A DNA stretch of 40,420 bases from Deltaproteobacteria bacterium (GTDB lineage: Bacteria; Desulfobacterota; Desulfomonilia; UBA1062): positions 1 through 40,420 of the forward strand of contig JAJFUP010000101.1 of the NCBI GenBank assembly GCA_021372395.1, given 5' to 3'. The notes under the pieces were generated by a model. That model did not search any database. It was not told where the DNA came from and saw nothing but the letters and a program-made list of their open reading frames with translations. Made by a program: the position numbers and the translations under genes. This document shows, one piece after another, positions 25,094 to 40,420 of the stretch (the first letter of the stretch is position 1; each line of letters opens with the position of its first letter).

Positions 25094-27157
25094 GTGGACA
25101 AGGCTCCGGAATTTCTGAACCTGTATCGCCACGGCTTCGTGCGTCTCGCCGCGTGCATCCCCGAGCTGAAGGTGAGCGACCCGCAGCACAATGCGGAAAA
25201 GACTATCGAGCTCGCCCGCAGGGCTTACGCGCAGAATGCCGTGCTGGCGGTCTTCCCGGAGATGGGCATATCAGGCTATTCCAACGAGGACCTGTTCTTT
25301 CAGGACGCCTTGCAGCGCTCGGTACTCATCGGACTGGGAAAGGTTCTGGAAGCCACGTCGGCCTTTGACATGGCCGTGGTGGCGGGCGCGCCGCTCAAGA
25401 TCATGGACGCGCTGTTCAACTGTGCCGTGGTCATGCACCAAGGGGCTATCCTCGGCATCGCCGTCAAGAGCTTCCTGCCGAACTACCGGGAGTTTTACGA
25501 GCTGCGGCAGTTCAGGCCCGCCAGCGAGCTTCCCGTCGAGAGGGTGGACCTCCTGAGCCAGAGAGATATCCCCATTGGGGCCGACCTCATCTTCGAGGCG
25601 GAAAACATCCCGGGCTTCAGGCTGTTCTGCGAGATCTGCGAAGACCTCTGGACACCGATTCCCCCGTCGAGCCATGCCTGCCTGAACGGGGCCACCATCG
25701 TCGCGAACCTGTCGGCATCCAACATCACCATGGGCAAGGAAGAATACCGGCATGACCTCGCATCGAACCAGTCCGCCCGGTGCATCGCGGCGTACCTGTA
25801 CACGGCGGCCGGGCCGGGCGAGTCCACCACCGACCTTGCCTGGGACGGCCACGCCATCGTCTACGAAAACGGGGGCCTCATCGCCGAGTCGAAACGCTTC
25901 TCCTGGGAGCCCCAGGTGATCATCGCGGATATCGATCTCGGCAGGCTCGGCAAAGACCGCATGATCATGACGAGCTTTACCGGGAGCGGGTATGCATCCG
26001 AGCACCGCGGCCGTCCCTTCAGGAGGGTGAGGCTCCCCCTGAATCCCCCCTTGGGAAGGATCCTGCCTGTCCGCGAGATTCCCCGGTTCCCCTACGTCCC
26101 CGTGGACCCGGATCTCAGGGAGAGGCGGTGCTACGAGATCTACAACATCCAGGTCCAGGGGCTCGCCAAGAGGATGAAGGCAACGGGGCTCGAAAACCTC
26201 GTCATCGGGGTCTCGGGGGGGCTTGACTCCACCCATGCGCTCATCGTGTGCGCGAGGACCGTGGACATGCTGGGGCTGCCGAGGAAGAACATCAAGGCCT
26301 ACACGCTGCCCGGCTTCGCCACCTCGGAGAAGACCTATGCCAACGCAAACAACCTCATGGCCTCCCTCGGGGTGGATGCCTCCGAGATCGACATACGACC
26401 GAGCTGCACCCAGATGATGAAGGACATCGCCCACCCCTTTGCCGAGGGCAGGGAGGTCTACGATGTGACCTTCGAGAACGTCCAGGCCGGCCAGAGGACC
26501 TCGATCCTCTTCAGGCTCGCGAACCAGAGGCAGGCCATGGTGGTGGGCACCGGTGACCTGAGCGAGCTCGCACTCGGGTGGTGCACCTACGGGGTGGGCG
26601 ATCATATGTCCCACTACAGCGTGAACGCGAGCGTGCCCAAGACGCTCATCCAGTACATCATCCGCTGGGTGGCGTCCGGCAGGATCCTGGGCCCGGAGGT
26701 TTCCTCCTTTCTCGAAGACATCCTCGATACCGAGATCAGCCCCGAGCTCATCCCGGGGACGTACGGCGACCAGCCTGCCCAGAGCACCGAAGCCGTCATC
26801 GGGCCCTACGAGCTCCAGGACTTCAACACCTTCTACATCACGCGCTACGGGTACCTCCCGTCCAAGGTGGCATTCCTCGCCTGGTGTGCTTGGCAGGATG
26901 CAGGCAAGGGAAGCTGGCCCGACATCCCCTCTGGCAAGAGGCACCAGTATACTTTGTCCGAGATCAGACGCTGGCTTGCGGTCTTCATCCACCGCTTCTT
27001 CAAGCTCAGCCAGTACAAGCGGTCGTGCATCCCGAACGGTCCCAAGGTGGGCTCGGGCGGGTCGCTGTCTCCCCGGGGCGATTACCGGGCCCCCAGCGAC
27101 AGCGAGGAGGCACCCTGGATGGAGGATCTGCAGAACATCCCGGACAAAGCCATCTGA
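25094..27157 (+). CDS. nadE: Glutamine-dependent NAD(+) synthetase
   Basis: Amidates nicotinic acid adenine dinucleotide to NAD using glutamine. The frame opens with an ATG at 25088, but GAGGAGG occupies 25081-25087 with no spacer. The in-frame GTG at 25094 has a correct six-base spacing and is preferred (687 residues). The N-terminal nitrilase-type glutaminase domain (about 15-290) has E56 (FPEMGISGY), a lysine in [12 protein letters not shown] and C182 (ICEDLW). The C-terminal synthetase domain (about 335-680) has the ATP pyrophosphatase loop SGGLDS at 374-379. Length fits the large bacterial two-domain form, similar to the mycobacterial enzyme. An RNase Z-like gene follows after 12 bp. Confidence 0.95.
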
Positions 27158-27169
27158 CGGTGAGCCCTC

Positions 27170-28144
27170 ATGAGGCCCACCTTTCTCGCCAGGCTCGTCA
27201 ATGGCACGCTCTTCGATCCCGTCGTCTTCGTGCGCCTCTTGAACCAGGGACGCGCCATCCTCTTCGACTGCGGAAGGACCGGGGCTCTGTCCAACAGAGA
27301 GATCCTCTCGCTGGACGAGGTCTTCATCAGCCACCCCCACATGGACCATCTCATGGGCCTCGACCAGGTGCTGCGGGTCATCCTCCACCGCAGGCAGCCG
27401 ATGCACCTCTACGGTCCGGAGGGGATCACGGACAAGGTGATCTCCCGGCTCGCCTCCTACACGTGGAACCTCACCCGCGACTACAGTTTCGCGTTCGTCC
27501 TCCACGAGGTCAGGGAGCGGGAGATCCTCACGAGCACTGCGCGGGCCTGCGAGGGCTTCCAGCGATCGCAGGCGGTCATCTCGGTGCGCCATGGCGCCAC
27601 CATCGCGTCCCACCCGCGCTACAGTGTGGATGCGGTCATCCTCGACCACAACATAAAGTGTCTGGGCTTTGTGATCAGAGAGCCGTTTCACGTCAACATC
27701 AGGGGAGATGCCGTCTCAAAGCGGGGCTACCGGAAAGGGCCATGGATCTCCGAGCTCAAGGATTGCCTCATGAAGGGAGGCAGGGAGGGGCACCTCCTCG
27801 TCGAAACCCAAGCAGGGCCGAGGGAAATCGAGGTGAGCGAGCTTGCGGACGAGCTCGTGGTCACGTCTTCGGGCCAGAAGATCGCCTATGTCACGGATAT
27901 CCGGTACTCCGAGGAGAACATCGCGCGCATAGCGGGCATCGCCCAGGGCGCGGACGTCCTGTTCATCGAGGCCTACTACCTGAGTGAGAGGGAGGCTCAG
28001 GCGTACGAAAAGGCCCACCTCACGGCCCGCCAGGCAGGCTCGCTCGCTAGGATGCTGAGTGCGAAGAAGGTGGTTCCCATGCACATCTCGCCTCGGTACC
28101 ACGACCGGGCAGAGGAGGTTCTCCTGGAGCTGGAGGGCGTGTGA
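27170..28144 (+). CDS. RNase Z-like metallo-beta-lactamase-fold hydrolase
   Basis: 324 residues. The metal motif is H55-P-H57-M-D59-H60 (SHPHMDHLMGL). Further ligands are plausible at the aspartate in YVTDIRYS, at HLTARQAG and at MHISPRY near the C-terminus, the pattern seen in tRNA 3' processing endonucleases (RNase Z/ElaC). The usual SHxHxDH is read here as SHPHMDH. It is longer than the classical 300-residue enzyme and has a less typical N-terminus, so another phosphodiesterase activity is possible. It is probably co-transcribed with nadE. A 70-bp piece of this gene recurs, fused to rfbC sequence, at 32561. Confidence 0.82.
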   Translation: MRPTFLARLVNGTLFDPVVFVRLLNQGRAILFDCGRTGALSNREILSLDEVFISHPHMDHLMGLDQVLRVILHRRQPMHLYGPEGITDKVISRLASYTWNLTRDYSFAFVLHEVREREILTSTARACEGFQRSQAVISVRHGATIASHPRYSVDAVILDHNIKCLGFVIREPFHVNIRGDAVSKRGYRKGPWISELKDCLMKGGREGHLLVETQAGPREIEVSELADELVVTSSGQKIAYVTDIRYSEENIARIAGIAQGADVLFIEAYYLSEREAQAYEKAHLTARQAGSLARMLSAKKVVPMHISPRYHDRAEEVLLELEGV

Positions 28145-28227
28145 CGCCCGCTTCAGGCCACTGGGCTTGATCTCTTGCCTCCTTTTGAGGTACACAACCC
28201 AATAACCATGAACAGAAAGGAGGGTCC

Positions 28228-28773
28228 ATGAAGCTCATCCCCACCGATCTCGAGGGGGCATTCATCGTGGAGCAGACCCTCTACCGGGACAGCCGCGGGT
28301 CCTTCCTGGAGATCTTCAGTCAAAAGGCCTTCGCGGAATGCGGCATCCCCGTGGAGTTCGTCCAGGACAACAGCTCCTTTTCGAAGGACGCGGGCGTCAT
28401 CAGAGGACTGCATTTCCAGAATTCACCCCATGCGCAGGCCAAGCTTGTCTGGGTGGTCGCAGGCGCTGTCCGGGACGTGATCGTGGACCTGCGGGAAGGC
28501 TCTCAGAGCTTCGCGAAGTGGACAGCCGTCGAGCTCTCCAGCGATGAGCCCCGGATGCTCTTCGTGCCCCGGGGTTTTGCCCACGGGTTCTGCACCCTTG
28601 TGCCGCAGACACGGGTCTTCTACAAGGTGGATTCCCCGTACGCCCCCCAGGCCGAGGGCGGCGTCCGCTTCGACGACCCGGGCCTCGCCATCCCCTGGCC
28701 CACGGCCTCACCCGTCGTCTCCGACAAGGACAGGGCGTTGCCGCTGCTCAAGGACCTGGGAGTGAGAAGGTAG
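28228..28773 (+). CDS. rfbC: dTDP-4-dehydrorhamnose 3,5-epimerase
   Basis: Cupin-fold epimerase of dTDP-L-rhamnose synthesis, 181 residues, normal length. Catalytic H62 is in GVIRGLHFQ, and FVPRGFAHGF and a tyrosine in TRVFYKVDSPYAP are as in RmlC. AGGAGGG precedes the ATG. The other rml genes are not in the window. The 3' 60% of this gene and about 225 bp beyond it are duplicated at 32621-33162. The stop codon lies inside a terminator-like hairpin. Confidence 0.95.
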   Translation: MKLIPTDLEGAFIVEQTLYRDSRGSFLEIFSQKAFAECGIPVEFVQDNSSFSKDAGVIRGLHFQNSPHAQAKLVWVVAGAVRDVIVDLREGSQSFAKWTAVELSSDEPRMLFVPRGFAHGFCTLVPQTRVFYKVDSPYAPQAEGGVRFDDPGLAIPWPTASPVVSDKDRALPLLKDLGVRR

Positions 28774-28998
28774 GCATACCCGCCTTCTCATATTGTTTGC
28801 TCCACACTTCTCTTTATGTTTATCAGTAACTGCATTCTTTTCGGACTGATTCTGCGCCAGCCGATGTGGAGTGAGGCATGGTGCCGGTAGTCATCTTCGA
28901 GCTTTTTTTCAGGTTCGTGTTCATCCGTGCACGCATACACGGTTTTTGCAGGTTCAAGGTCGGGAACGGCCTTGCTGATTACGGAAAGCTTCCACCTG
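28457..28998 (+). repeat. Direct repeat copy A (rfbC 3' part plus flank)
   Basis: This 542-bp stretch is matched in the same orientation at 32621-33162 with a few percent substitutions and small indels. It covers codon 77 of rfbC to the stop and about 225 bp of noncoding flank. Homology ends at CTTCCACCTG in both copies. The two copies bracket about 3.6 kb (29.0-32.6 kb) carrying three minus-strand genes. Confidence 0.9.
28763..28800 (+). terminator. Terminator-like hairpin overlapping the rfbC stop
   Basis: TGAGAAGG (28763-28770) pairs with CCTTCTCA (28783-28790) and is followed by TATTGTTT. The rfbC TAG is in the loop. The same hairpin with loop changes is preserved in the second copy near 32929-32954, which suggests it matters. 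Confidence 0.5.
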
Positions 28999-29457
28999 TT
29001 CTTTGTCCTCGCGGCCCTGTATGTGTGGCTTGTCACCTGAATATGGGCATATGCAGTTGCGGCTGCTGCTGCCCGTGGGTACGTACACCATTCGAGGCAT
29101 GATCCATGGGTGGCCGAGTGAGGTACAGCTCGAATTTCAGACGCGTGAAGATGCTTCATGTCTGCCCTGCCAGGAAAAGTGACTCACCCGCACCGGTTGG
29201 CACATGCTGGAATGAACCGGATGATCTTGAGGATCGTTGTTCCTGATATTCAGTTTTCCAACACCCCGAAACCGAGAAGAAATCGCAGAAATAAATGGTT
29301 CATAATCTGGGACTGGGGCCAGCAATTTTTTGAAGAAATGATCAATATGGGCAAAGCGGAGATTTTGGCACGGGATCATCAGGCTGGAAGCCCACGGGGC
29401 CTCGATGGTGACGCTATGAAATCAGGTTGAGACGAACCTAAATAGTCACAGTTAGTC
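28774..29457. other. Gene-free region after rfbC with a dispersed-repeat-like element
   Basis: No gene supported over 684 bp. Bases up to 28998 are the duplicated flank. Around 28910-28945 the minus strand reads GCACGGATGAACACGAA, a word typical of the noncoding dispersed repeats rich in 'CGGATGAACACG' found in many environmental genomes. The open frames of 123 residues (minus, 28788-29159) and 90 residues (plus, 29158-29430) have no recognisable domains, no good ribosome sites and translate this repeat, so they are not called. Confidence 0.5.
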
Positions 29458-31497
29458 TTAGAAGACGTGCACTTCTCTTCCATGAAGCGCAGATACAACG
29501 ATCTGCAGGACATCCTCCGAAGATGTGACACTCAAGGCATCTCTGACGGTGACTTCCATCTGTTCGAGATTTATCTGCTGTAGAACGTGGCATACGCGTG
29601 AGGCATAAAATGGGTTCATGCTGAGAGCCCTGACACCCATTCCCACCAGCAGGCAAGCAGACACCGGATTTCCTGCCGCTTCTCCACATACAGTTAGACC
29701 TATCCCATGCTTCATGGTAGCCCGGACCACTAGCTCTGTCGCTCGCAAAACACATGGATGCAGGAACGAATGCACACTAGAAGAATTCTGTGATTGGCGG
29801 TCCGAGGCCAGTATAAAGTGGGCGAGATCGTTGGTCCCGATGGATACAAAATCTACAATCTTCACAATCTCATCGATATCAAACACTGCTGCAGGAGTCT
29901 CGATCATGGCCCCAATGGAAGGCCGCTTGGCGAGTTTCTCAGTTTTGACCACCTCGTCGACTATATTGCATGCTTCTTTCAGGTCGGCCACACCCATGAC
30001 CAGGGGAAACATGATCCGCACATCATCCTCTTGCGTAGCTCGGACGATCGCTTGAAGTTGGGTGCGAAACATCGTCTTTTCGGCCAGGGAAAAAGCTAAG
30101 CCACGTTTACCCAAACGTAGGGCCAGGTCGCTTTCTGCGTGATTGAAACATGGGATCTTGTCCCCGCCGAGATCCATAGTGCGAATAACAACGGGCCGTG
30201 GACTGAGTATTTTCGCCACAGCAGTATAGACCGTATACTGTGTATCCAGGTCCGGTGGTTGCTTGACATCTAGAAAGAGAAACTCAGACCTGAACAGGCC
30301 TACACCATCCAGCCCATACTCTAAGGCCAGGTGTGCTTCATCTGTTCTGCTGATATTCGCATATAACCCAATGTGGATACCATCCTCTGTAGTGCATTTC
30401 TGGGAAGCATCCAGTGCCCTTGCAGGCTCGATTGTGGCATATTGACTACTGCGCGCCGCGAAGCTCGCTGTCTGTACTTTGGTCGGTGCCACAGTAACCG
30501 TGCCGGCCTCTGCATCCACCAACAAACGGTCACCTGTCACCAGCAGCGAAGCAACATCTTTGACATCGCTTACCGAAGGAATGTGTTTGGTCCGCGCCAG
30601 GATTGCGACATGTGACGCAGGGCCGTTGCGCTCGGTTACCAGGGCTGCCAGATTGGTTTGATCCAATTGCAATAAATCTGACAGTAAGAGCTCCTTTGCG
30701 ACGAGAATCGTATTTGGTGGGAGAGACACCTGCTGGCCTGGAGACACCTGGCCGGAGTTCCTGATATTCCGCAAAACTCGACGGCCGATATCACGGATAT
30801 CAGCACTGTGTTCCCGCATGCTTTCCTGCTTTAATCCCTCCAGCATCGCCGCCAACTCCCGAACCTCTTCTGTAACCGCCTGCTCAACCTTGACCAGGTC
30901 CTTCCATACGCGCTGCTTGCATTTGCCCCAAAACTCGACGTCCTTGAGCATGGCCAGGTGCACATCCAGCAAAGAATGCTCCGTAGTAACTTTGTCACCT
31001 ATGAACTGTTTCTGAGCGTTTTCCAGTTCACTGATCGTTGCCGCCAGGGCACAATCGAGCCTGCTGATCTCTTCCTTCACTTCACTTTGTGCAATGGCCT
31101 GATGCCCGGAGGTCAATTCGTTTTCCGGCGACTGGTAGATCAGCGCCACTCCTTCAACCATTCCAGGGGAGATTCCCGTGCCTTGCAGTGGTATACTCGT
31201 ATTCTTGGCAAAGGCCCGCAGTCGGCTTATCTCCAGTTCCCTTGTTGCAATCGTTTTCTGTAACCGACTAACGCGCAGCAGAGAAATATACGTTATGATG
31301 ATAACGGCTAATGCAACGACAAGAATTGACGCAGTTTCCAGGATGTATTCCTGAGGCCTGTATGGTGTCGGTGGTGCTCCAAGCAAAAGGTAAGGAAGAT
31401 CAACAAACTCGTCAAACCATATGACTGCAGTGACAATGAAGAACAAGCCTGTTTCGCCTGCAATCAGCAGCCAGTCCCTAGTCCTTAATTTCTTCAC
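29458..31497 (-). CDS. Membrane-anchored enzyme I-like PEP-protein phosphotransferase
   Basis: 679 residues. Two N-terminal transmembrane helices (about 11-29 and 53-73) are followed by a short coiled stretch, then a complete PTS enzyme I layout. The N-terminal domain (about 103-225, GISPGMVEGVALIY) is followed by the phospho-histidine domain with H296 in GPASHVAILAR. The C-terminal PEP-binding barrel (about 365-650) has GVGLFRSEFLFLD, RTMDLGGDK, IGTNDLAHF and the catalytic cysteine C604 in VCGEAAGN. Standard enzyme I (575 aa) and PtsP are soluble, so the membrane anchor replacing the GAF domain is unusual. No HPr or sugar EII gene is nearby. GC content and codon use are lower than the core genes, suggesting transfer. 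Confidence 0.85.
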   Translation of the reverse strand: MKKLRTRDWLLIAGETGLFFIVTAVIWFDEFVDLPYLLLGAPPTPYRPQEYILETASILVVALAVIIITYISLLRVSRLQKTIATRELEISRLRAFAKNTSIPLQGTGISPGMVEGVALIYQSPENELTSGHQAIAQSEVKEEISRLDCALAATISELENAQKQFIGDKVTTEHSLLDVHLAMLKDVEFWGKCKQRVWKDLVKVEQAVTEEVRELAAMLEGLKQESMREHSADIRDIGRRVLRNIRNSGQVSPGQQVSLPPNTILVAKELLLSDLLQLDQTNLAALVTERNGPASHVAILARTKHIPSVSDVKDVASLLVTGDRLLVDAEAGTVTVAPTKVQTASFAARSSQYATIEPARALDASQKCTTEDGIHIGLYANISRTDEAHLALEYGLDGVGLFRSEFLFLDVKQPPDLDTQYTVYTAVAKILSPRPVVIRTMDLGGDKIPCFNHAESDLALRLGKRGLAFSLAEKTMFRTQLQAIVRATQEDDVRIMFPLVMGVADLKEACNIVDEVVKTEKLAKRPSIGAMIETPAAVFDIDEIVKIVDFVSIGTNDLAHFILASDRQSQNSSSVHSFLHPCVLRATELVVRATMKHGIGLTVCGEAAGNPVSACLLVGMGVRALSMNPFYASRVCHVLQQINLEQMEVTVRDALSVTSSEDVLQIVVSALHGREVHVF

Positions 31498-31588
31498 AAC
31501 AGGTCGTATTCCTCAATAATAGGCACGTGAACATTGGTCTGTGACTGGCCAAAATAAACGAGAAGGGCAGATCCAGCCCGTTGATGTC

Positions 31589-31969
31589 CTAGACCGGCTT
31601 TACGGATAGAGCTATCAGGAACCCTTCTTTGGATGTAATGTACTGCACCCTCACCATCCTATCCTTTGCCATCTTGCCGAGGGTTATGGCCTTCCACCCT
31701 GGGCCGTAAATTGTCGTGGTGGTCCCCACCAGAAAGGTGCAGTGCTTCCCGTCTTCGTAGATCAGGGCTATCTTAGGCCGGATGCCTTTGGTCGGTTCAG
31801 CGAGGATTACCGAATCCACCCTCCCTTTAACTTCCAGCGGGACCGCAGCCTTCCGAGGAAAAGCGGGATGGGGGGTTCTCCCTTTCTGCTGGGCCAGGAA
31901 CAGTTCCTGTCCGAAGCAGGCAGAGGACAGAACCCCCAAGGCACAAATCATGAGTGCAACCTTTTTCAT
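31589..31969 (-). CDS. Small exported protein of unknown function
   Basis: 126 residues with a signal peptide (MKKVALMICALGVLSSACFG, cleavage likely near residue 20; the cysteine at 18 is not in a good lipobox). The mature part has beta-rich segments (VKGRVDSVILAEPTKG; KIALIYEDGKHCTFLVG; ALSVKPV) suggesting a small OB- or DUF5666-like barrel; this is a visual impression. It lies 30 bp downstream of another small exported protein on the same strand. Confidence 0.6.
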   Translation of the reverse strand: MKKVALMICALGVLSSACFGQELFLAQQKGRTPHPAFPRKAAVPLEVKGRVDSVILAEPTKGIRPKIALIYEDGKHCTFLVGTTTTIYGPGWKAITLGKMAKDRMVRVQYITSKEGFLIALSVKPV

Positions 31970-31999
31970 CCCCCAGATACCCCTGTGGTGATTCCGGTC

Positions 32000-32395
32000 T
32001 TATTCAGCCTTCTTATCCGCCGGTTTCTCTTTGGCCTTCACTTCCTTCTTCACGATCTTCTTTGCTTTGATGATCTCGATCTTCTCGGCATTGTTGGTTC
32101 CGGTAGCCAGGGTAACCTTAACATTTTCACCTTTCTTCAACTTGGCGATCTCTCCTGCCTTCACAAGGATGGCCTTACCCTTTACCAAGATCTCACCTTT
32201 TGTGGTGTCAATCTTGGTGATCTTGCCAATGACGACATCGGCCTTGGCAGGCTCTGCCTTTGCCATTGCAGGTGCAGCTGCGGTTGCAGTTGTTGCGGGT
32301 TTAACGGCATCGGCCTTCGGTGCGCCGGAGGCAAATACCATCGTGGTAAAGCATACCAGGGCCAATACTGCTACAAAGCTGACAAGTTTCTTCAT
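32000..32395 (-). CDS. Small exported Ala/Lys-rich protein
   Basis: 131 residues from the ATG at 32395 (GGAGGAAAG just upstream). A signal peptide runs to about residue 22 (VCFTTMVFASGA), followed by an alanine/proline-rich linker (about 25-50). A small beta-rich domain (VVIGKITKIDTTKGEILVKGK...VKVTL) and a lysine/glutamate-rich tail end the protein. It resembles low-complexity periplasmic proteins with one OB-like domain. Together with the next small exported gene it may form a two-gene unit of envelope function; the role is unknown. Confidence 0.65.
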   Translation of the reverse strand: MKKLVSFVAVLALVCFTTMVFASGAPKADAVKPATTATAAAPAMAKAEPAKADVVIGKITKIDTTKGEILVKGKAILVKAGEIAKLKKGENVKVTLATGTNNAEKIEIIKAKKIVKKEVKAKEKPADKKAE

Positions 32396-32560
32396 GGTTC
32401 TTTCCTCCAAATGGTTATTTGATGATACGTCTATACACCGGGGAAGATTAGACTATGATTAGAACAAGGTTAAAAAATTCTCATGTTGTGCTTGTGGACG
32501 CTTCTGTCGGAGATTTTTGCTCCAGTGTGGGAGTACCCATTGGAAGGGGGATGAAGACGG

Positions 32561-32938
32561 TCGTCCCCCACGAGGTCAGGGAGCGGGAGATCCTCACGAG
32601 CACTGCGAGGGCTTCCAGCGGTCGCAGGCGCTGTCCGGGACGTGATCGTGGACCTGCGGGAAGGCTCTCAGAGCTTCGCGAAGTGGACGGCCGTCGAGCT
32701 CTCCGGCGATGAGCCCCGGATGCTCTTCGTGCCCCGGGGTTTTGCCCACGGGTTCTGCACCCTGGTGCCGCAGACACGGGTCTTCTACAAGGTGGATTCT
32801 CCCTATGCCCCCCAGGCCGAGGGCGGCGTCCGCTTCGACGACCCCGACCTCGCCATCCCCTGGCCCACGTCTTTGCCCATTGTCTCCGGCAAGGACAGGG
32901 CATTGCCGCTGCTCAAGGACCTGGGAGTGAGAAGGTAG
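32561..32938 (+). pseudogene. Broken fusion of RNase Z-like gene fragment to rfbC 3' end
   Basis: Bases 32561-32620 match the RNase Z-like gene around 27495-27564 (CCACGAGGTCAGGGAGCGGG and on), with a 10-bp deletion. From 32621 the sequence matches rfbC from 28457 to its stop (TAG 32936-32938). The join falls at the word TCGCAGGCG, present in both parent genes. An ATG-initiated frame from 32642 encodes 98 residues nearly identical to the C-terminus of RfbC but lacking the catalytic His-62 region, so it cannot be an active epimerase. A longer frame from 32491 reads through the junction but changes frame relative to rfbC. Confidence 0.85.
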
Positions 32939-33162
32939 GCATACCTGCCTTCTCGTATTGTTTGCTCCGCACTTCTCTTTATATTTACCAGGAACAGCAC
33001 TTGCTTCGGACCGATTATGCGCCAGCCGATGTGGAGTGAGGCATGGTGCCGGTAGTCGTCTTCGAGCTTTTTCTCAGGTTCGTGTTCATCCGTGCACGCA
33101 TACACGGTTTTGCAGGCTCAAGGTCGGGAACGGTCCTGCTGATTACGGAAAGCTTCCACCTG
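32621..33162 (+). repeat. Direct repeat copy B (rfbC 3' part plus flank)
   Basis: Second copy of 28457-28998. Within the coding part I count about 16 substitutions over 308 bp, about half of them silent. The terminator hairpin and the 'GGATGAACACGAA' element are retained. Homology ends at the same CTTCCACCTG word as copy A. Confidence 0.9.
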
Positions 33163-33216
33163 ATTTCCGGAATCCTATCAATGCTCAAACAATTTTATTG
33201 GCTTGAATCATACGTT

Positions 33217-33250
33217 TAAAAAGGCCGAGGTGAGTATGTAATCTCACCCC
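33217..33250 (-). terminator. Terminator of the exported nuclease-fold gene
   Basis: On the minus strand GGTGAG / CTCACC with an 8-base loop (33229-33248), flanked by further pairing G and C residues, is followed after 6 bases by TTTTT. It lies 22 bp after the stop of the minus-strand gene ending at 33272. Confidence 0.5.
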
Positions 33251-33271
33251 AGCCAACTCATTGTTAAATTG

Positions 33272-34486
33272 TTACTTGGGTACTTTAAATTGCATATCTG
33301 CTACTACGCCGGCATGATCAGACGGCCAGAGGTAATCACCAGCATAATCCCTCGGATAGGGATAGGTATTGAGAACCATGTCAGACACTTCATTACCCAC
33401 GACATCGCATTTAACTCTATCTACTCTTAGATCCAGTAGATTCAGGAAGATCAAATCGATGCGTGTATCAAGTAAAGCCGGGTCCGGGTCACTCACAAAC
33501 TCGTCAAAGCCGCTGGTATAGCCCTCATCATGTTTTTTGTTTTGCAGGAGCCATGAATCAAGGTATCCGGCATATACTGCTTCCAAATATGGCGGTATAT
33601 AGGGAGTGGGTTGAATTGGCCCTGTACCATCAGGATCATACGTACCTGGAACATCATCTGGGGCGCTATTGAAATCGCCGACCATGATAATTGGTTTAGG
33701 ATCAGAATCAGATAACGTAGCTAAAGTACCTAGTAATTCATACATCTGTGCTGACTGGACGACTCGAAAGACGCTACTCGTAGCGCTGCGCACTTCAAGA
33801 TGGGTGCAAGCTATACGGTAGTCTTCGCCCTTCACATTTACATCAACAACAAGATAACCCCTCTTGAAATTAACGGTAGTACCCCCAAGCGGCAATGACA
33901 AATATACGTCATAATTTTTCCCGAACACCTGAGCGGCAGCGTTATTTTTTCGCACCAGTATATAATCATGATCTACCATGCGCACATAAGACAGACCTGT
34001 TGGAGATGCTGGATCAACCATGGGCATTGTTATATCGGCATTGGTGACCGAAAACGCCTGGTAATCCATCCCACGTTCCTTCAAGGCGGCGTTAAGAATC
34101 GTATAGAAGTCAATGACAGTCGTTACCTGACCTGAAGATGTCAACTTGACGAAAGTTTCAACTTCATTCAGTCCAATCGCTTGCGGTTTATTGGCGGCGA
34201 TTTCGTCTGCAATGGCCTCGGCTCGCGCCGAGAAATTGGTTTCAAGCATTATCTGATACACCTGAGCAACCGCCATTGGAACAGCATAGGGGTTCGGATC
34301 CTGAGCCGCATCAACCACCCTGAAGATATCCGCTCCTAGGTACAGGTTGCGAGTCATAACTGTTACCTTAGAGTTTGCTGCAAACGCCGATGAGAGCGGT
34401 GCAGCAATGACCAGTACCCCTACAAAGATGCACAGAACGTTCAACATCTTGAATTCGCTGATGACTGATAATATTCCTCTTTTCAT
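33272..34486 (-). CDS. Exported endonuclease/exonuclease/phosphatase-family protein
   Basis: 404 residues with an N-terminal signal peptide ending near AFA-AN (about residue 36). The EEP (DNase I/exonuclease III/sphingomyelinase) fold is supported by ordered motifs: TRNLYLGAD, the metal glutamate in GLNEVETF, CTHLEV, GDFNSAP and the C-terminal SDHAGV. Such secreted proteins act on nucleic acids, phospholipids or inositol phosphates; the substrate here cannot be read. An AAGGAGG ribosome site supports the ATG at 34486. AT content is higher than in the core genes. Its promoter overlaps a perfect palindrome, suggesting dedicated control. Confidence 0.85.
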   Translation of the reverse strand: MKRGILSVISEFKMLNVLCIFVGVLVIAAPLSSAFAANSKVTVMTRNLYLGADIFRVVDAAQDPNPYAVPMAVAQVYQIMLETNFSARAEAIADEIAANKPQAIGLNEVETFVKLTSSGQVTTVIDFYTILNAALKERGMDYQAFSVTNADITMPMVDPASPTGLSYVRMVDHDYILVRKNNAAAQVFGKNYDVYLSLPLGGTTVNFKRGYLVVDVNVKGEDYRIACTHLEVRSATSSVFRVVQSAQMYELLGTLATLSDSDPKPIIMVGDFNSAPDDVPGTYDPDGTGPIQPTPYIPPYLEAVYAGYLDSWLLQNKKHDEGYTSGFDEFVSDPDPALLDTRIDLIFLNLLDLRVDRVKCDVVGNEVSDMVLNTYPYPRDYAGDYLWPSDHAGVVADMQFKVPK

Positions 34487-34507
34487 AAGTTAACCTCCTT
34501 GTAATTG

Positions 34508-34540
34508 ATTATACGCCTGACAATCGATAGGAATCGATTG
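34508..34540 (-). promoter_or_regulatory. -10 box and palindromic operator of the exported nuclease-fold gene
   Basis: A consensus TATAAT (minus strand, 34508-34513) lies 22 bp before the ATG. Directly upstream is the perfect 8-bp inverted repeat CAATCGAT-AGGA-ATCGATTG (34521-34540), occupying the -16 to -35 space. No good -35 hexamer is present, so the palindrome could be an activator or repressor site. Confidence 0.5.
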
Positions 34541-34998
34541 CTTTACCTCAACGTCATGAATAAACAATGAAATTATAGTAGGAGAGAATATCATTCATGA
34601 CACATCCATTTCTTTTCATCGTGCGTTCGTGGTGAGGTTACAGGTTCATCGTGATAAATTAAATATAATCGGTAAGTTCATAGAATCAATGTTTGCTGGA
34701 ATTCTTTCAAAGTATTTTGATATGTCACCTGACCAGTTAAAAAAAGTTTCCTTGCCATAGAGGTTTCTGCGATTTCTTATAGGTTGAAAATGCAGGAAAA
34801 CTCAAGATATTTGGCTGAAACATACGCAAGAGGACATGTCATATCAACGCGGGTCAAGTGGCACGCACATTACACAGAGGCATCATATTTCAAACTCCAC
34901 AGTTCGGCATGGAATCTACAGATTAGCCTCTCATGTACTGAATAGAGATTGCGCCCCTGAGCGAGCCACGAGCAATTAATTACGAAGCAGGAATATAC
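34541..34998. other. AT-rich gene-free intergenic region
   Basis: Over 458 bp no open frame with a ribosome site is seen on either strand. It contains a further TATAAT on the minus strand at 34572-34577 without a convincing -35. It separates the divergently transcribed nuclease-fold gene and marR and is markedly AT-richer than the core region. Confidence 0.5.
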
Positions 34999-35031
34999 TT
35001 TACAATATGGTACGTATCAGTATTATATGTA
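34999..35031 (+). promoter_or_regulatory. marR promoter with putative autoregulatory operator
   Basis: TTTACA (34999-35004), 16-bp spacer, TATTAT (35021-35026). An imperfect inverted repeat, TACAATATGGTAC / GTATTATATGTA, spans 35001-35031 and covers both boxes, as expected for an autorepressing MarR protein. The ATG at 35007 lies inside this element and is therefore unlikely to be a start. Confidence 0.45.
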
Positions 35032-35054
35032 TAAAACGAGAACGGAAAAAGGAA

Positions 35055-35552
35055 ATGAAAAAAGAAAAGACGTGCGATTATAAGTTCTTCACATCGAATC
35101 CCAAGGATTGCCCCTACTACCTGGTAACCCGTGTCTCTCTGGCAGCCACGTCCGTCTTCAAGAAGGTATTTGCCGAGGCCGGGCTCATGGAATTGAAGCC
35201 CGCATACCTCGGCACACTCATGAGCCTGTGGAACGAAGACGGACTGAAGGTCATCGAGCTGGGACGCAGGGCCGGACTGGAACCTTCCACCATGACCGGC
35301 CTCATCGACCGGATGGAGCGGGACGGCCTGGTGAAACGGTTCCCCGATCCGGAAGATCGGAGGGTGCTGAAGATCTTCCTCACTGATGCGGGACGCACCA
35401 TACAGGACACCGTGGCCTCGAAAGTCGATCATGTCATGGCTCAGATTCTCTCGGGGGTTGATGATAATGATGTCAGGCACCTGAAGGAAACCCTGCGCAA
35501 GGTGCTTGCCAATGTCCATGAGGAGAATATCGATGAGCAGTCTGAAAAATGA
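35055..35552 (+). CDS. MarR family transcriptional regulator
   Basis: 165 residues from the ATG at 35055 (AAGGA just before it, spacing short; an ATG at 35007 lies within the promoter). The winged-helix core is clear: MSLWNEDGLKVIELGRRAGL, then the recognition helix EPSTMTGLIDRMERDGLVKR and the wing PDPEDRRVLKIFLTDAG. It probably represses the Fe-S gene cassette that follows and itself; the ligand is unknown. It overlaps the next small gene by 20 bp, so they are one transcript. Confidence 0.9.
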   Translation: MKKEKTCDYKFFTSNPKDCPYYLVTRVSLAATSVFKKVFAEAGLMELKPAYLGTLMSLWNEDGLKVIELGRRAGLEPSTMTGLIDRMERDGLVKRFPDPEDRRVLKIFLTDAGRTIQDTVASKVDHVMAQILSGVDDNDVRHLKETLRKVLANVHEENIDEQSEK

Positions 35553-35793
35553 GATGATCGGGTATGCCCGTTCGCATACCCCGCTTGCGCTTCTTTGTGC
35601 GGCAAATTACCACCCGCACCGGAGGCGCCCTTTCACGGAGTGCCGGGACCGGGCAGAACTTCACCTCAACGACAACCTGTGCCCCCATGTGAAGCGTATC
35701 CTTGACCGGGCCATGGGTGACGACCTTTCGGAGCGTAAGGGGAGGATCTTCATGAGCAGCTGCGATGCCACAAGGAATGGAGGAATACGATGA
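35533..35793 (+). pseudogene. Truncated 2-hydroxyacyl-CoA dehydratase (HgdB/FldB-like) N-terminal fragment
   Basis: 86-codon frame with GAGGAG before its ATG. The pattern TPLALLCAANYHPHRR ... AELHLNDNLCPHVKRILDRAM ... GRIFMSSCDATRN follows the opening of 2-hydroxyacyl-CoA dehydratase D-component proteins, where a NLCPxV cysteine and an SCDAxR cysteine are cluster ligands. Full proteins are 350-430 residues; this one stops right after SCD. The stop (TGA) overlaps the next start (ATGA). It is either a deletion remnant fused to the next gene's ribosome site or a genuine miniature protein. Confidence 0.5.
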
Positions 35794-36578
35794 ACGAGGG
35801 AGCAAAGGATAAGATAAAGAATTTTGCATTGAACCTTGGCGTGGAGGATGTGGGCTTTGGTGCGGTTTCTGCTTATAACAGCCCGTTGTCCCCCAAGATT
35901 GAAACGATCTTCCCCAAGGCGAAGAGCCTCGTCGTCCTGGCCTTCAGGGAGCTGTCCAACTGCGAGAGTGAAAACAAGAGGATCGCCATGGGCGGCAGGC
36001 TCGACTCCATGGAATTCGCACGATCATGCATTTATAAGGTTTCACGGTTCATCGAGAAAGAGTTTGACACAAAGGCAATGTCCACACCTTTGTCATATCC
36101 CCTGAACATGAAGCCCGAGAACAGATTCGGCCTGATAGCCGATTTCTCCCAGCGGCATGCAGCCATTGCTGCGGGGTTGGGGAACTGGGGACGGCACAAT
36201 CTCGTGATCCATCCGCGATTGGGTTCCCGGGTGATCTTTTCCACAATCCTGACCGAACTGGAACTGCCGCCTGATCCTCCGGTCACCGAGGACCTCTGCA
36301 TTCACTGCAACATCTGTGTGGAGATCTGTCCCGGCCATGCCCTGGATGAAGAACGAAAGACCGATGAGTTCAAGTGCATGAAATACTCACAGCCGTATGG
36401 CCTCGGTGGAAACATCAAATTCTGGATGAAATTTATCACCAGCAGTCCTGAAGAGCAGAAACAGATGATGATCAGCCCTGATTACATGAGCCTGTATCAG
36501 GCGGCGTTCATCGGTTTCGAATACCACTGTTTCAAGTGTTACCTGTCGTGTCCCGTCGGCAGGGAACAGAACCAATGA
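35790..36578 (+). CDS. 4Fe-4S protein related to epoxyqueuosine reductase (QueG-like)
   Basis: 262 residues. The N-terminal half (about 1-160) resembles the QueG/reductive dehalogenase core: AKSLVVLAF, the FGLIADFSQRHAAIAAGLGNWGRHNL stretch and HPRLGSRV. A ferredoxin motif CIHCNICVEICPG lies at about 171-183, and the second cluster is probably built from KCMKY and CFKCYLSCPVG at the C-terminus. It is shorter than QueG (about 350 aa) and lacks its C-terminal HEAT region, so queuosine synthesis is unlikely; electron transfer or an uncharacterised reduction is more plausible. It is coupled to the upstream fragment by ATGA overlap. Confidence 0.8.
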   Translation: MNEGAKDKIKNFALNLGVEDVGFGAVSAYNSPLSPKIETIFPKAKSLVVLAFRELSNCESENKRIAMGGRLDSMEFARSCIYKVSRFIEKEFDTKAMSTPLSYPLNMKPENRFGLIADFSQRHAAIAAGLGNWGRHNLVIHPRLGSRVIFSTILTELELPPDPPVTEDLCIHCNICVEICPGHALDEERKTDEFKCMKYSQPYGLGGNIKFWMKFITSSPEEQKQMMISPDYMSLYQAAFIGFEYHCFKCYLSCPVGREQNQ

Positions 36579-36592
36579 AGGGGGGAAGCACA

Positions 36593-37048
36593 ATGAAAGA
36601 CAGACTCCGGCTTGCGGCACCCTGCGGACTTTACTGTGGAGCATGTGGGATTTATGCAGCCCACCGTGACAATGATCAGAAGCTCAAGGAAAAACTGGCT
36701 GCTGTTTACGGCTTGAACTCGGAAGATATCAGATGTGAGGGATGTCTGTCCGAGTCTGATCATGTTTTCTTCTATTGCCGGGTCTGTGCCATAAAGAATT
36801 GCACGAGAGAAAAGGGATTCGAGGGGTGTTATCAGTGCACGGAGTTCCCCTGTAAGATCATTGATGACTTTCCTGTCCCTGTTGGAAAGAAAGTGATGCT
36901 GCGGTCTGTTCCTGCCTGGCGTGAACTCGGTACCGAGAAATGGATGGATGAGGAAGAAAGAAGATACTCTTGCCCGCACTGCGGCGGAAAACTCTTCCGG
37001 GGTGCGAAGCGATGCAGGACCTGCAAGGAAGCAGTCGAGATGGATTGA
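36593..37048 (+). CDS. DUF3795 cysteine-rich zinc protein
   Basis: 151 residues from the ATG at 36593 (GGGGGAAG upstream; a longer frame into the previous gene is rejected). The opening APCGLYCGACGIYAAHRD is the DUF3795 signature. Further cysteines follow in CEGC, CRVCAIKNC, and CYQCTEFPC, and a C-terminal zinc ribbon reads CPHCGGKLFRGAKRCRTC. About sixteen cysteines suggest multiple zinc or Fe-S sites. The function of the family is unknown. It lies between two Fe-S proteins in one transcript. Confidence 0.85.
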   Translation: MKDRLRLAAPCGLYCGACGIYAAHRDNDQKLKEKLAAVYGLNSEDIRCEGCLSESDHVFFYCRVCAIKNCTREKGFEGCYQCTEFPCKIIDDFPVPVGKKVMLRSVPAWRELGTEKWMDEEERRYSCPHCGGKLFRGAKRCRTCKEAVEMD

Positions 37049-37092
37049 AAAAAGTAACCGGGCATCAGCTATCTCAAGGAAAGGGGCATCGT

Positions 37093-38160
37093 ATGGACAG
37101 AAAGATCCTCTATGAAAATCTTGCAAAGCATCTCCACCAGGGCATCATCGGGGCACCCATGTCTTTGTCCCTCAGGGGAATCCTGGAGATCATGTTCACG
37201 GAGGAGGAGGCAGCGATTGCATGCAGGCTCCCCTTTGAAAACAAGACGCTCGAAGATCTCAAAGGATTACTGCCGGAAAAGGCTGAATCCCTGGAATCCA
37301 TTCTCACTGCCATGGCAAAAAATGGTACCGTGTTTACCCAACAGAAACCAGGGAAGGAAAGGATATATCGTCTCTTACCAACGGTCGTAGGGTTTGCGGA
37401 AGCCCCTTACTGGGCAGGGATGGATACGGAAAAGGCCAGAAAGCTTGCGCCGCTCTGGATTGAATACCGGAATGAAGGCTTCGGGAAAGAGCTGGCCAGG
37501 AATATCCCGACGGTGAGGGTCATTCCCATTGATCATTCGCTCAAGAACAAGTCGGAGATCCTCCCGTTCGATCAGCTCAGAGAAAAGATGCTTACCCTGA
37601 AGTATTTTGCCGTGAGCAAATGCCCGTGCAGGCAGATGATGGCCTACGAGGGGAAGGGATGCAGCCACTCCATAGACAACTGTCTGCACTTCAACGACAT
37701 GGGACGTTACGTCGTGGAGCAGGGCATGGGAAGGGAGATCACGAAGGAAGAGGCAATAGCCATACTGGAGGAGGCGGACAAGGAAGGGCTTGTCCATGCC
37801 ATAGAAAACCTTGACGGATATCTATCCATGATCTGCAACTGCTGCGGGTGCTGCTGCGTATTCCTCCAGACACAGAAACTGCTGAAACTGAATATGATAT
37901 CTTCCTCAAACTATGTCTCGTGTGTCGATGAAGAAGTGTGCATCGGTTGTGGTACCTGTGAAGAAAGGTGCCCCATGGATGCGATTGCCGTAGGAGATGA
38001 CGAGAATGCCCATGTCGATCCGGCATGCTGCATCGGCTGCGGTATCTGTGTCCCGACCTGTCCGGCTACAGCCGTCGCTCTGGTTCTGCGAGAAACCATC
38101 ACACCGCCACCGAACATCAATGAGTTTTTTACGAAACGATACCTTGCGCCAGAGCCATGA
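37093..38160 (+). CDS. Dicluster 4Fe-4S ferredoxin-domain protein with cysteine-rich middle
   Basis: 355 residues from the ATG at 37093 (AAGGAAAGGGG upstream; the longer frame overlaps DUF3795 out of frame). The N-terminal helical winged-helix-like part (about 1-100) is followed by a cysteine-rich middle (SKCPCRQMM, GCSHSIDNC and the dense CNCCGCCC at about 250). Two C-terminal ferredoxin motifs follow, CIGCGTCEERCPM and CIGCGICVPTCPA. There is no signal peptide, so it is cytoplasmic. It probably shuttles electrons for a partner oxidoreductase such as its QueG-like neighbour. A frameshifted relative follows at 38242. Confidence 0.85.
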   Translation: MDRKILYENLAKHLHQGIIGAPMSLSLRGILEIMFTEEEAAIACRLPFENKTLEDLKGLLPEKAESLESILTAMAKNGTVFTQQKPGKERIYRLLPTVVGFAEAPYWAGMDTEKARKLAPLWIEYRNEGFGKELARNIPTVRVIPIDHSLKNKSEILPFDQLREKMLTLKYFAVSKCPCRQMMAYEGKGCSHSIDNCLHFNDMGRYVVEQGMGREITKEEAIAILEEADKEGLVHAIENLDGYLSMICNCCGCCCVFLQTQKLLKLNMISSSNYVSCVDEEVCIGCGTCEERCPMDAIAVGDDENAHVDPACCIGCGICVPTCPATAVALVLRETITPPPNINEFFTKRYLAPEP

Positions 38161-38241
38161 GGATATGCTTGGATGGTCTCATGATCCGAGTGAGGAGCTC
38201 TCGTTCTATTTTTTCATGATATCCAGTTGAAGGGGAATACT

Positions 38242-38480
38242 ATGGTTGGGATGAATGAGGAGAAGATATATCGCAGGTTGGGGCAGAAGATCGATGATCT
38301 CAGAGCCAAAGCCCCCTGGAGCGTGAGCTCTGCACCTTCTTGAAGGAGCTCTATACCCCCGAAGAAGCCGAATTGCTGGTCAAGATGCCCTACACACTCT
38401 CCACCATTGCTGCAAGTGTTGCTGGAATTCAGTTCATTGCCTCTGGCACATTACATATGATTTTAGCACCAACAAGATAA
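38242..38480 (+). pseudogene. Frameshifted, truncated paralogue of the dicluster ferredoxin protein
   Basis: From the ATG at 38242 (GGGGAA upstream) the frame reads MVGMNEEKIYRRLGQKIDDL... and stops at 38341-38343. A second frame from about 38316, offset by two bases, continues the same protein (ERELCTFLKELYTPEEAELLVK and on) to TAA at 38478-38480. Together they parallel the N-terminal winged-helix region of the intact neighbour (EEA-containing helix, LPF/MPY). The rest of the gene, including all ferredoxin motifs, is missing. Confidence 0.7.
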
Positions 38481-38550
38481 TCGAGGTATTTGCAAAAGTT
38501 TCGGTATGTCGTTCCTGCGGAAGATGGAACCCATTGAATATAATGTATTA

Positions 38551-38576
38551 TGGACCCCCGCTTTCGCGGGGTGACG
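38551..38576. repeat. REP-like palindrome
   Basis: TGGACCCCCGCTTTCGCGGG followed by GTGACG is a short perfect hairpin (CCCCGC-TTTC-GCGGGG) of the 'TGGATTCCCGCTTTCGCGGGAATGACG' dispersed type. It is followed by GTTTTT and may act as a terminator. It lies just after the decayed ferredoxin copy. Confidence 0.5.
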
Positions 38577-38986
38577 GTTTTTCGAGTTTTGCAATTGGCT
38601 CAAGTATAGTTATTGCAATAATAACGGTGGAGACCCAGTTTTCTTGCATGGTGGGTTATCTAAGAAATCTCCAGCAGATTAATAGCAACCATTCCACTTC
38701 CCTGAAGGGCCATCAATGTTTTTCCCACAATACATGGAATCATATAGCTGCCAAATCTGCCTTTGCTAAAGCTTCCTGTTTATGTGAAGCTGCAAATACA
38801 GGACGGTCGATAGGAGCTGTTTTTTCGTTGAAAATATCCCACGACCGTGAGGATATAACACATAATCATCCGGCAACCGAATGCCGATGAAATGTAACGA
38901 AGGTCCCTTTCCCGATGCATCCAAAAGGATTCCGGACCTTGATTGCATGAGACAGAAACCAACATCTAGAGGGAGGAGCAACGAAG
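38577..38986. other. Gene-free region before the lipoprotein
   Basis: No supported gene over 410 bp. A 118-residue plus-strand frame (38534-38890) starts inside the REP-like palindrome, has no ribosome site and shows no domain. Composition is AT-richer than the lipoprotein that follows, consistent with decayed sequence. Confidence 0.5.
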
Positions 38987-40285
38987 ATGAGAAACAGTCG
39001 TGCGTCTGTCTTGGGAATGTTTGTTGTTATCACTGCTGTTATTTTCAGCGGTTGCACCTCGACACGGTATACCAGCACTCTGAAACCTTCGGGAGACAAA
39101 GCACTGCAAATGGGCGACGTGCGCTTCAGCATCGTGACCCCGGGCGGCAAACCCGGCACGCCCGATCCCTTTGCAGAGCGGTCCCTGAAGCTCTATCCCA
39201 ACCTGTTTACCGACGACTGGACAGGTGTGCCGGTGCTGGTCAAGATCGATGTGAAAACGGATTCGACCGCAGGCACGTCGGCCTTTCTGACAGGCTTTTT
39301 CACCTTGGGGCTCATCCCCTTTCCCGGCTCGGAGAAGTCCATGTACGACGTGGAGACCAGCCTTGTAAATGCCCGGGGGGAACGTGTGCCGGCGGGAAAG
39401 ATCCCCTTCGAATTCGACAAGGTCAGCTGGACCACCGTGTCCAGCCCGCTGGGCCTTCTGCCGGTCGCCGGACCCTCGGATCTGCCGAGGGACTCCATAA
39501 GTATCCTCTCTGCAGATGTGGGAACTTTTCAGAAACAGATCAGCAAGACTTCCGACTACATCAACGACTGCCAGATCGAGGCGGTCGTACAGGCGCTGCG
39601 AACAGCCGATCAGGCCAGGCTGGCGGACGACTATCGGGCGCGCAAGGCGTATCTGCAGGAGGTCATGATCGACGGGAAACCCTGCTGGAGCTTTCTTGAC
39701 AGGGTGTTCTCCCTGAAGCAGGACCGGGTGGAAAGTTATATGGCGCTCATATATCAGGATTATCCCAAGCGGGGAGTGAAGCCGCTGGATCAGGTGGTGG
39801 TAGCCCGGACTGACGGGTCCGGCCGCTGGCATCCGGTGACCGGATATCTGCATCACACCCGTACGCTGACCTCCGTTAGCTCCCTGATGGACGGCGGTGT
39901 CCCTGCAAGGGTGGCGGTAAGAACCATTGAGACGCCGCCAATGGAGGATTTCATCGATACCCCGGATCTGACTTCCGAAGATGGAGCGGATGTCCTGCGG
40001 TGGAGCAACTCTGTGCTGCTGGAAGCCAAGAACCGGTCCATGGTCAAGATCCTGCAGGAGGAAAGCGGTAGTGAGCTGCTGGGCCTTGCAACCCGTATCG
40101 AGCGGTCGATCCTGGACCTGAACGAGCAGGCTGAGAAGGCCAAGGACCGCGCCCAGGCCAAGGTAGAGAAGGGCCAGGGCGACCCTGCGCCGGACAGGGA
40201 ACTGTCAGTCCTGTGCCGCCAGCGTATGGAGATACTCAAGCCCATCCTGGCGGCGGTGAAGCAGTCGGCAGCTGGAAAACAATAA
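38987..40285 (+). CDS. Lipoprotein of unknown function
   Basis: 432 residues. A type II signal peptide with lipobox FSGC (cysteine at residue 23) follows a hydrophobic stretch; GGGAGGAG precedes the ATG. The serine after the cysteine does not argue for inner-membrane retention, so outer-membrane location is likely. The mature part contains a glycine/hydrophobic patch (GTSAFLTGFFTLGLIPFPGS, typical of small lipoproteins that contact the membrane) and a C-terminal coiled-coil (about 370-432, LNEQAEKAKDRAQAKVEKG). I do not recognise a family. Its N-terminus resembles that of the next, truncated gene. Confidence 0.8.
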   Translation: MRNSRASVLGMFVVITAVIFSGCTSTRYTSTLKPSGDKALQMGDVRFSIVTPGGKPGTPDPFAERSLKLYPNLFTDDWTGVPVLVKIDVKTDSTAGTSAFLTGFFTLGLIPFPGSEKSMYDVETSLVNARGERVPAGKIPFEFDKVSWTTVSSPLGLLPVAGPSDLPRDSISILSADVGTFQKQISKTSDYINDCQIEAVVQALRTADQARLADDYRARKAYLQEVMIDGKPCWSFLDRVFSLKQDRVESYMALIYQDYPKRGVKPLDQVVVARTDGSGRWHPVTGYLHHTRTLTSVSSLMDGGVPARVAVRTIETPPMEDFIDTPDLTSEDGADVLRWSNSVLLEAKNRSMVKILQEESGSELLGLATRIERSILDLNEQAEKAKDRAQAKVEKGQGDPAPDRELSVLCRQRMEILKPILAAVKQSAAGKQ

Positions 40286-40322
40286 AAGACGATCAGGCTT
40301 CAGATGAAAGAGAGGAGCAGCG

Positions 40323-40420
40323 ATGAATAAATTTCGGGCATCTTTGCAATGGATGACAGTATGTCTGATGATCATGTTTTTGAGCGGGTGCGCTTCCGTG
40401 CGGACGGCAAGCACCCTGAA
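40323..40420 (+). CDS. Lipoprotein, N-terminal part (cut by window end)
   Basis: The ATG at 40323 with GAGAGGAG upstream starts a frame open to the window end (32 codons seen). MNKFRASL leads into a hydrophobic stretch and the lipobox LSGC. After the cysteine, ASVRTASTL parallels TSTRYTSTL of the preceding lipoprotein, so this is probably a tandem paralogue in the same operon. Confidence 0.7.
   Translation, partial: MNKFRASLQWMTVCLMIMFLSGCASVRTASTL

Follow-up and report, generated by a model that had tools for sequence, protein, structure and literature searches.

A truncated mosaic copy of rfbC beyond a predicted enzyme I gene cluster, probably the relic of a decayed partial duplication

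The rfbC locus and the genes between its two copies

The window, a stretch of 40,420 nucleotides, is the whole of one contig in a 306-contig, 2.99-Mb draft genome (98.7% complete). It contains an intact rfbC gene, preceded by a gene for an MBL-fold protein (Table 1). The 3' part of rfbC recurs in the same orientation on the far side of a minus-strand gene cluster. The original prediction placed these direct repeats of about 540 bp at 28457-28998 and 32621-33162, coordinates that hold to within 2 bp: BLASTN matched 28455-28998 to 32620-33162 in plus/plus orientation (E = 0). It also described the repeat as rfbC from codon 77 to the stop plus 225 bp beyond it, and proposed aligning the two copies. 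The alignment bears the description out: of its 546 columns, 511 are identical (93.6%) and five contain gaps, and the longest exact shared run is 69 bp. A search of the whole 3.0-Mb draft returned these two sites only and no third copy.

Table 1 Features of the rfbC locus and its surroundings (positions in the window)
Feature	Position	Strand	Basis
MBL-fold (RNase Z-like) gene, precedes rfbC	27170-28144	+	protein family search
Source, within the MBL-fold gene, of the left end of copy 2; has a 10-bp tandem repeat	27492-27574	+	self-BLASTN
Intact rfbC/rmlC	28228-28773	+	dTDP-4-dehydrorhamnose 3,5-epimerase: PF00908 2.9e-65, TIGR01221 5.8e-57
Copy 1: rfbC codon 77 to stop plus 225 bp of 3' flank	28455-28998	+	repeat search, BLASTN
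Segment between the copies: minus-strand gene cluster, preceded by about 0.46 kb in which no gene was recognised	28999-32557
PTS enzyme I-like protein, 679 aa	29458-31497	-	TIGR01417 1.6e-115, above cut-off; Pfam
Small exported-type protein, 126 aa, no family	31589-31969	-	paralogue on contig C58, 63% aa identity
Small exported-type Ala/Lys-rich protein, 136 aa, no family	32000-32410	-	N-terminus and upstream region matched on contig C58
Left part of copy 2: MBL-fold gene remnant, minus one 10-bp tandem unit, frameshift	32558-32630	+	BLASTN
Fusion point of the MBL and rfbC parts in copy 2, GGTCGCAGGCG	32620-32630	+
Right part of copy 2: 3' portion of rfbC (codons 77-181 and stop) plus 225 bp of flank	32620-33162	+	repeat search, BLASTN
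Lineage-specific DNA beyond copy 2, predicted to lead to the gsp operon (EEP-family protein, MarR, Fe-S proteins, lipoprotein paralogues)	33163-40420

Comparison with relatives identifies copy 1 as the ancestral locus, because the gene order NadE-MBL-rfbC is kept in 11 of the 12 relatives' loci fetched and each of these loci has a single rfbC; in the twelfth, no NadE match lies within the fetched stretch. The locus thus retains what a decayed duplication should leave behind, an intact parent gene in its ancestral order. The relatives compared belong to other species, in which the region beyond rfbC differs: 3' of rfbC they mostly carry a thiamine pyrophosphokinase gene (thiN), a PPIase-like gene, gspF and gspG, as read from open reading frames, and the PPIase gene follows rfbC at about 0.3-2.4 kb. 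One of the contigs (L044) stops too early to show the genes downstream of rfbC. The 225-bp flank was not found in any outgroup. We rejected the idea that it holds a remnant of thiN, its scores to the relatives' downstream DNA being no better than those of shuffled sequences. A minus-strand coding role was also rejected, as every such frame is interrupted within the flank in at least one copy.

The original prediction of a membrane-anchored enzyme I and two small exported proteins between the repeats, all on the minus strand, agrees with the hydropathy and family searches. The enzyme I-like protein scores above the TIGR01417 cut-off, contains all three expected domains (PF05524, PF00391 and PF02896) and has intact GPASHVA (phospho-His), GTNDL and CGEAAG motifs, the domain and active-site set by which a protein would be recognised as an enzyme I. 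Its N-terminus carries two hydrophobic stretches, at about residues 8-39 and 49-80. Over roughly its first 80 residues the protein is 61% identical to a 179-aa open frame of a congener, and weaker matches occur in frames of about 450-1080 aa, mostly long, in other relatives; alignment with the family's other enzyme I proteins starts only at about residue 80-105. Both small proteins have signal-peptide-like N-termini. Together with their upstream region (31589-32481, minus strand) they are paralogous to a pair in the same order elsewhere in the genome (contig C58, locus L057, 417-1231), where a TatA-like open reading frame follows.

The enzyme I cluster is missing from most relatives, and no close relatives of the enzyme I were found in GTDB genomes. 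We rejected a plasmid-borne origin of the cluster, the plasmid relatives all being below 60% identity, and likewise a virus-borne one, the exact rfbC pattern having no match in IMG/VR. Among the titles listed by a literature search, none was directly relevant to a membrane-anchored enzyme I, and this putative protein may merit separate attention.

Mosaic structure of copy 2

The left boundary of copy 2 is where the predicted extent of the repeat fails: the rfbC part and its flank were correctly delimited, but the copied DNA begins 62 bp further left, at 32558. Self-BLASTN traced 32558-32630 to 27492-27574 in the MBL-fold gene (E ~1e-20), and this copied fragment is directly fused to rfbC codon 77. 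The junction reads GGTCGCAGGCG in copy 2, GATCGCAGGCG at 27564-27574 in the MBL-fold gene and GGTCGCAGGCG at 28455-28465 in rfbC, a microhomology of 9-11 bp, of which 9 bp are exact. The 891 bp that separate the two parental sites are missing from copy 2. Among random deletions of comparable size in the same DNA, only 7 in 100,000 (7e-5) had junction homology of at least 9 bp.

Copy 2 has suffered a second loss. The stretch 27492-27574 contains a 10-bp imperfect tandem repeat, with units CTGCGCGGGC CTGCGAGGGC, and one unit is missing from copy 2. The MBL frame of copy 1 aligns to nine relatives without a gap and with its length unchanged, so the difference is a loss in copy 2 rather than a gain in copy 1, and the fused frame in copy 2 is therefore shifted. 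The rfbC part of copy 2 lacks the first 76 codons, and the open reading frame through the copy is frameshifted. RmlC enzymes carry their catalytic histidine in the RGLHFQ region; this region of the window's RmlC was aligned with a solved RmlC chain, and the motif with the expected catalytic histidine is missing from copy 2. Because an MBL fragment is fused to rfbC and both the 891 bp and the 10-bp unit are gone, we conclude that copy 2 is what remains, as a pseudogene, of a unit that measured at least 1.5 kb. Truncated and disrupted in this way, it matches the second copy of a decayed duplication and probably has no function.

The differences within the rfbC part carry further information. Ten of the 16 fall at third positions (p = 0.016), a pattern compatible with constraint on one copy and free change in the other. 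Those 16 differences change six residues, with derived states in both copies. Residue 152 is Gly in copy 1 and Asp both in copy 2 and in all 12 relatives, so that copy 1 itself has changed since the duplication or is otherwise not a plain image of the parent sequence. The differences are also clustered, with 3 in 178 bp followed by 13 in 141 bp (Fisher p = 0.003), an uneven spread that hints at partial gene conversion or at a donor from another strain.

Lineage-specific DNA beyond the repeats

The original prediction described a low-GC segment bracketed by the repeats. Its GC content is indeed lower (0.511, against 0.603 to the left), but the repeats do not bound the low-GC DNA: GC is 0.491 for 33163-38160, so that the low-GC region runs past copy 2 to at least 38160. 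The lineage-specific DNA also continues past copy 2 instead of ending there. The gsp operon is missing from the window and lies on another contig, C306 (GspF 78% identical). Read as its reverse complement, C306 opens with the 3' end of a lipoprotein gene that is 81% identical to the gene at 38987-40285, and the window ends in the start of a second paralogue of that same gene. Tandem lipoprotein paralogues (38987-40420 and C306) appear to bridge the right end of the window and the gsp contig. Because these paralogues match across both contig ends, C306 would lie to the right of the window, with roughly 0.9 kb missing between them, a placement made from sequence comparison. About 16 kb would then separate rfbC from the PPIase gene, and the 3.6 kb between the repeats would be only the first quarter of the lineage-specific DNA, which would extend to gsp. 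The repeats therefore mark the ends of neither the lineage-specific DNA nor the low-GC region.

The thiN gene usual between rfbC and gsp appears to have been lost at this locus; a diverged thiN-like gene (34% identical) lies on contig C84. The stretch at about 35.1-38.1 kb has a counterpart with the same order at another place in one congener (G001:C63). A dispersed, hairpin-like repeat with a CCCCGCTTTCGCGGGG core lies at 38477-38604; it has 74-98% matches on many contigs of the same genome and is REP-like. Two non-coding stretches, 34764-34866 and 29245-29295, match the same region of contig C11 (L058, 4447-5287) at 76-79% in opposite orientations and represent another dispersed repeat. No known RNA reached Rfam gathering scores in 27000-40420, and ARAGORN found no tRNA or tmRNA target in the window. 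No integrase, transposase or other mobility gene was found in or beside the segment among the main open reading frames searched, the far part of the block lying in an assembly gap.

Origin of copy 2 and comparison with known systems

We consider it likely that an illegitimate partial direct duplication, followed by decay, produced copy 2. This account rests on the fusion of the MBL fragment to rfbC at a microhomology rarely matched by random deletions, and on a second copy that is frameshifted and without rfbC residues 1-76; the genome holds no third copy. The duplicated unit would have spanned at least 27492-28998, from two-thirds of the MBL-fold gene (its 3' part) through the whole of rfbC to the end of the 225-bp flank, and its second copy, in direct orientation, would have been placed beyond the enzyme I cluster. 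Slippage would then have removed one 10-bp tandem unit from copy 2. The loss of 891 bp would have followed the duplication, at the 9-11-bp microhomology, or would have accompanied it through template switching. The copies would subsequently have drifted about 6% apart, copy 1 being kept as the rfbC of the conserved operon and copy 2 becoming a non-coding relic. The order of events and the exact mechanism that we infer leave room for two routes: a replication template switch could have generated the mosaic in one step, and a tandem duplication with later deletions is also possible.

The layout could, alternatively, reflect a Campbell-type single crossover at rfbC, in which a circle carrying the enzyme I cluster and an MBL-rfbC fragment from a related strain was integrated. 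Any such event gives exactly the present layout, a donor from another strain would fit both the 6% divergence and the uneven differences, and the absence of the cluster from most relatives is compatible with its acquisition. We nevertheless judge this origin unlikely. No replication, mobilisation, integrase or phage gene was recognised in the segment, the plasmid-encoded enzyme I relatives all fall below 60% identity, and the paralogous small-protein pair in the same genome suggests a resident cluster; moreover, a deletion within the fragment would still be required. Less probable still is an assembly artefact in which two strain variants were wrongly joined, as can happen with draft or metagenome data, even though the genome is a draft of 306 contigs and its copies diverge as strains might. 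Copy 2 carries two private deletions and lies between flanks that are both unique. Doubling of a single sequence cannot account for it, given these deletions, a divergence of about 6% and exact runs of at most 69 bp.

The original prediction further held that recombination between the repeats could excise or duplicate a bracketed segment. Direct repeats of 543 bp permit homologous exchange, and with 93.6% identity and exact runs of up to 69 bp such an event is physically possible; its predicted product is a deletion of 28999-32557. In principle, the enzyme I cluster could be excised or duplicated in this way. A discrete bracketed segment is unsupported, because copy 2 is internally deleted and reaches into the upstream gene, the low-GC, lineage-specific DNA continues beyond it and no mobility gene was found. 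It is least probable of all that the repeats actively serve as a recombination switch that deletes or amplifies the cluster. Their orientation and length would allow this, and in that case the gain and loss of an enzyme I with two anchor-like N-terminal helices might make a membrane-tethered phosphorelay variable within the population, an extension that we regard as highly improbable. Against a switch stand the truncation and 6% divergence of copy 2 and the absence of the layout from all 23 family relatives searched. No deletion variant was seen, and an exact pattern scan of a collection of genome contigs returned no genome of the same species. Most likely, copy 2 is an ordinary relic of a chance duplication, neither a mobile element nor a functional switch.

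Like a partial tandem duplication with pseudogene decay, the locus has direct, nearby copies, one intact in the ancestral operon and one truncated and frameshifted. It differs in that the copies are non-adjacent, with 3.56 kb of other genes between them; under tandem duplication, this spacing requires a further deletion or insertion step. With illegitimate duplication or deletion at microhomology it shares discontinuous pieces in direct orientation, microhomology at an internal junction and a lost tandem unit. RecA-independent deletion between short direct repeats is known (PMC5426353). Template-switch models such as MMBIR involve 2-5 bp of junction microhomology (PMC2621351), and the 9-11 bp at the internal junction here lie above that range. 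The main value of the analysis is a correction: what resembles an island-like direct repeat is a mosaic pseudogene inside a larger lineage-specific block, and neither a second rfbC nor a genomic island should be annotated at this locus. As in genomic islands flanked by the 3' ends of their target genes, a 3' gene end is repeated around lower-GC, lineage-specific genes. In contrast to such islands, which have a short att core, the locus has a 543-bp imperfect repeat with neither an integrase nor a tRNA, and its distal copy, which extends into a second gene, sits within the lineage-specific DNA and not at its end.
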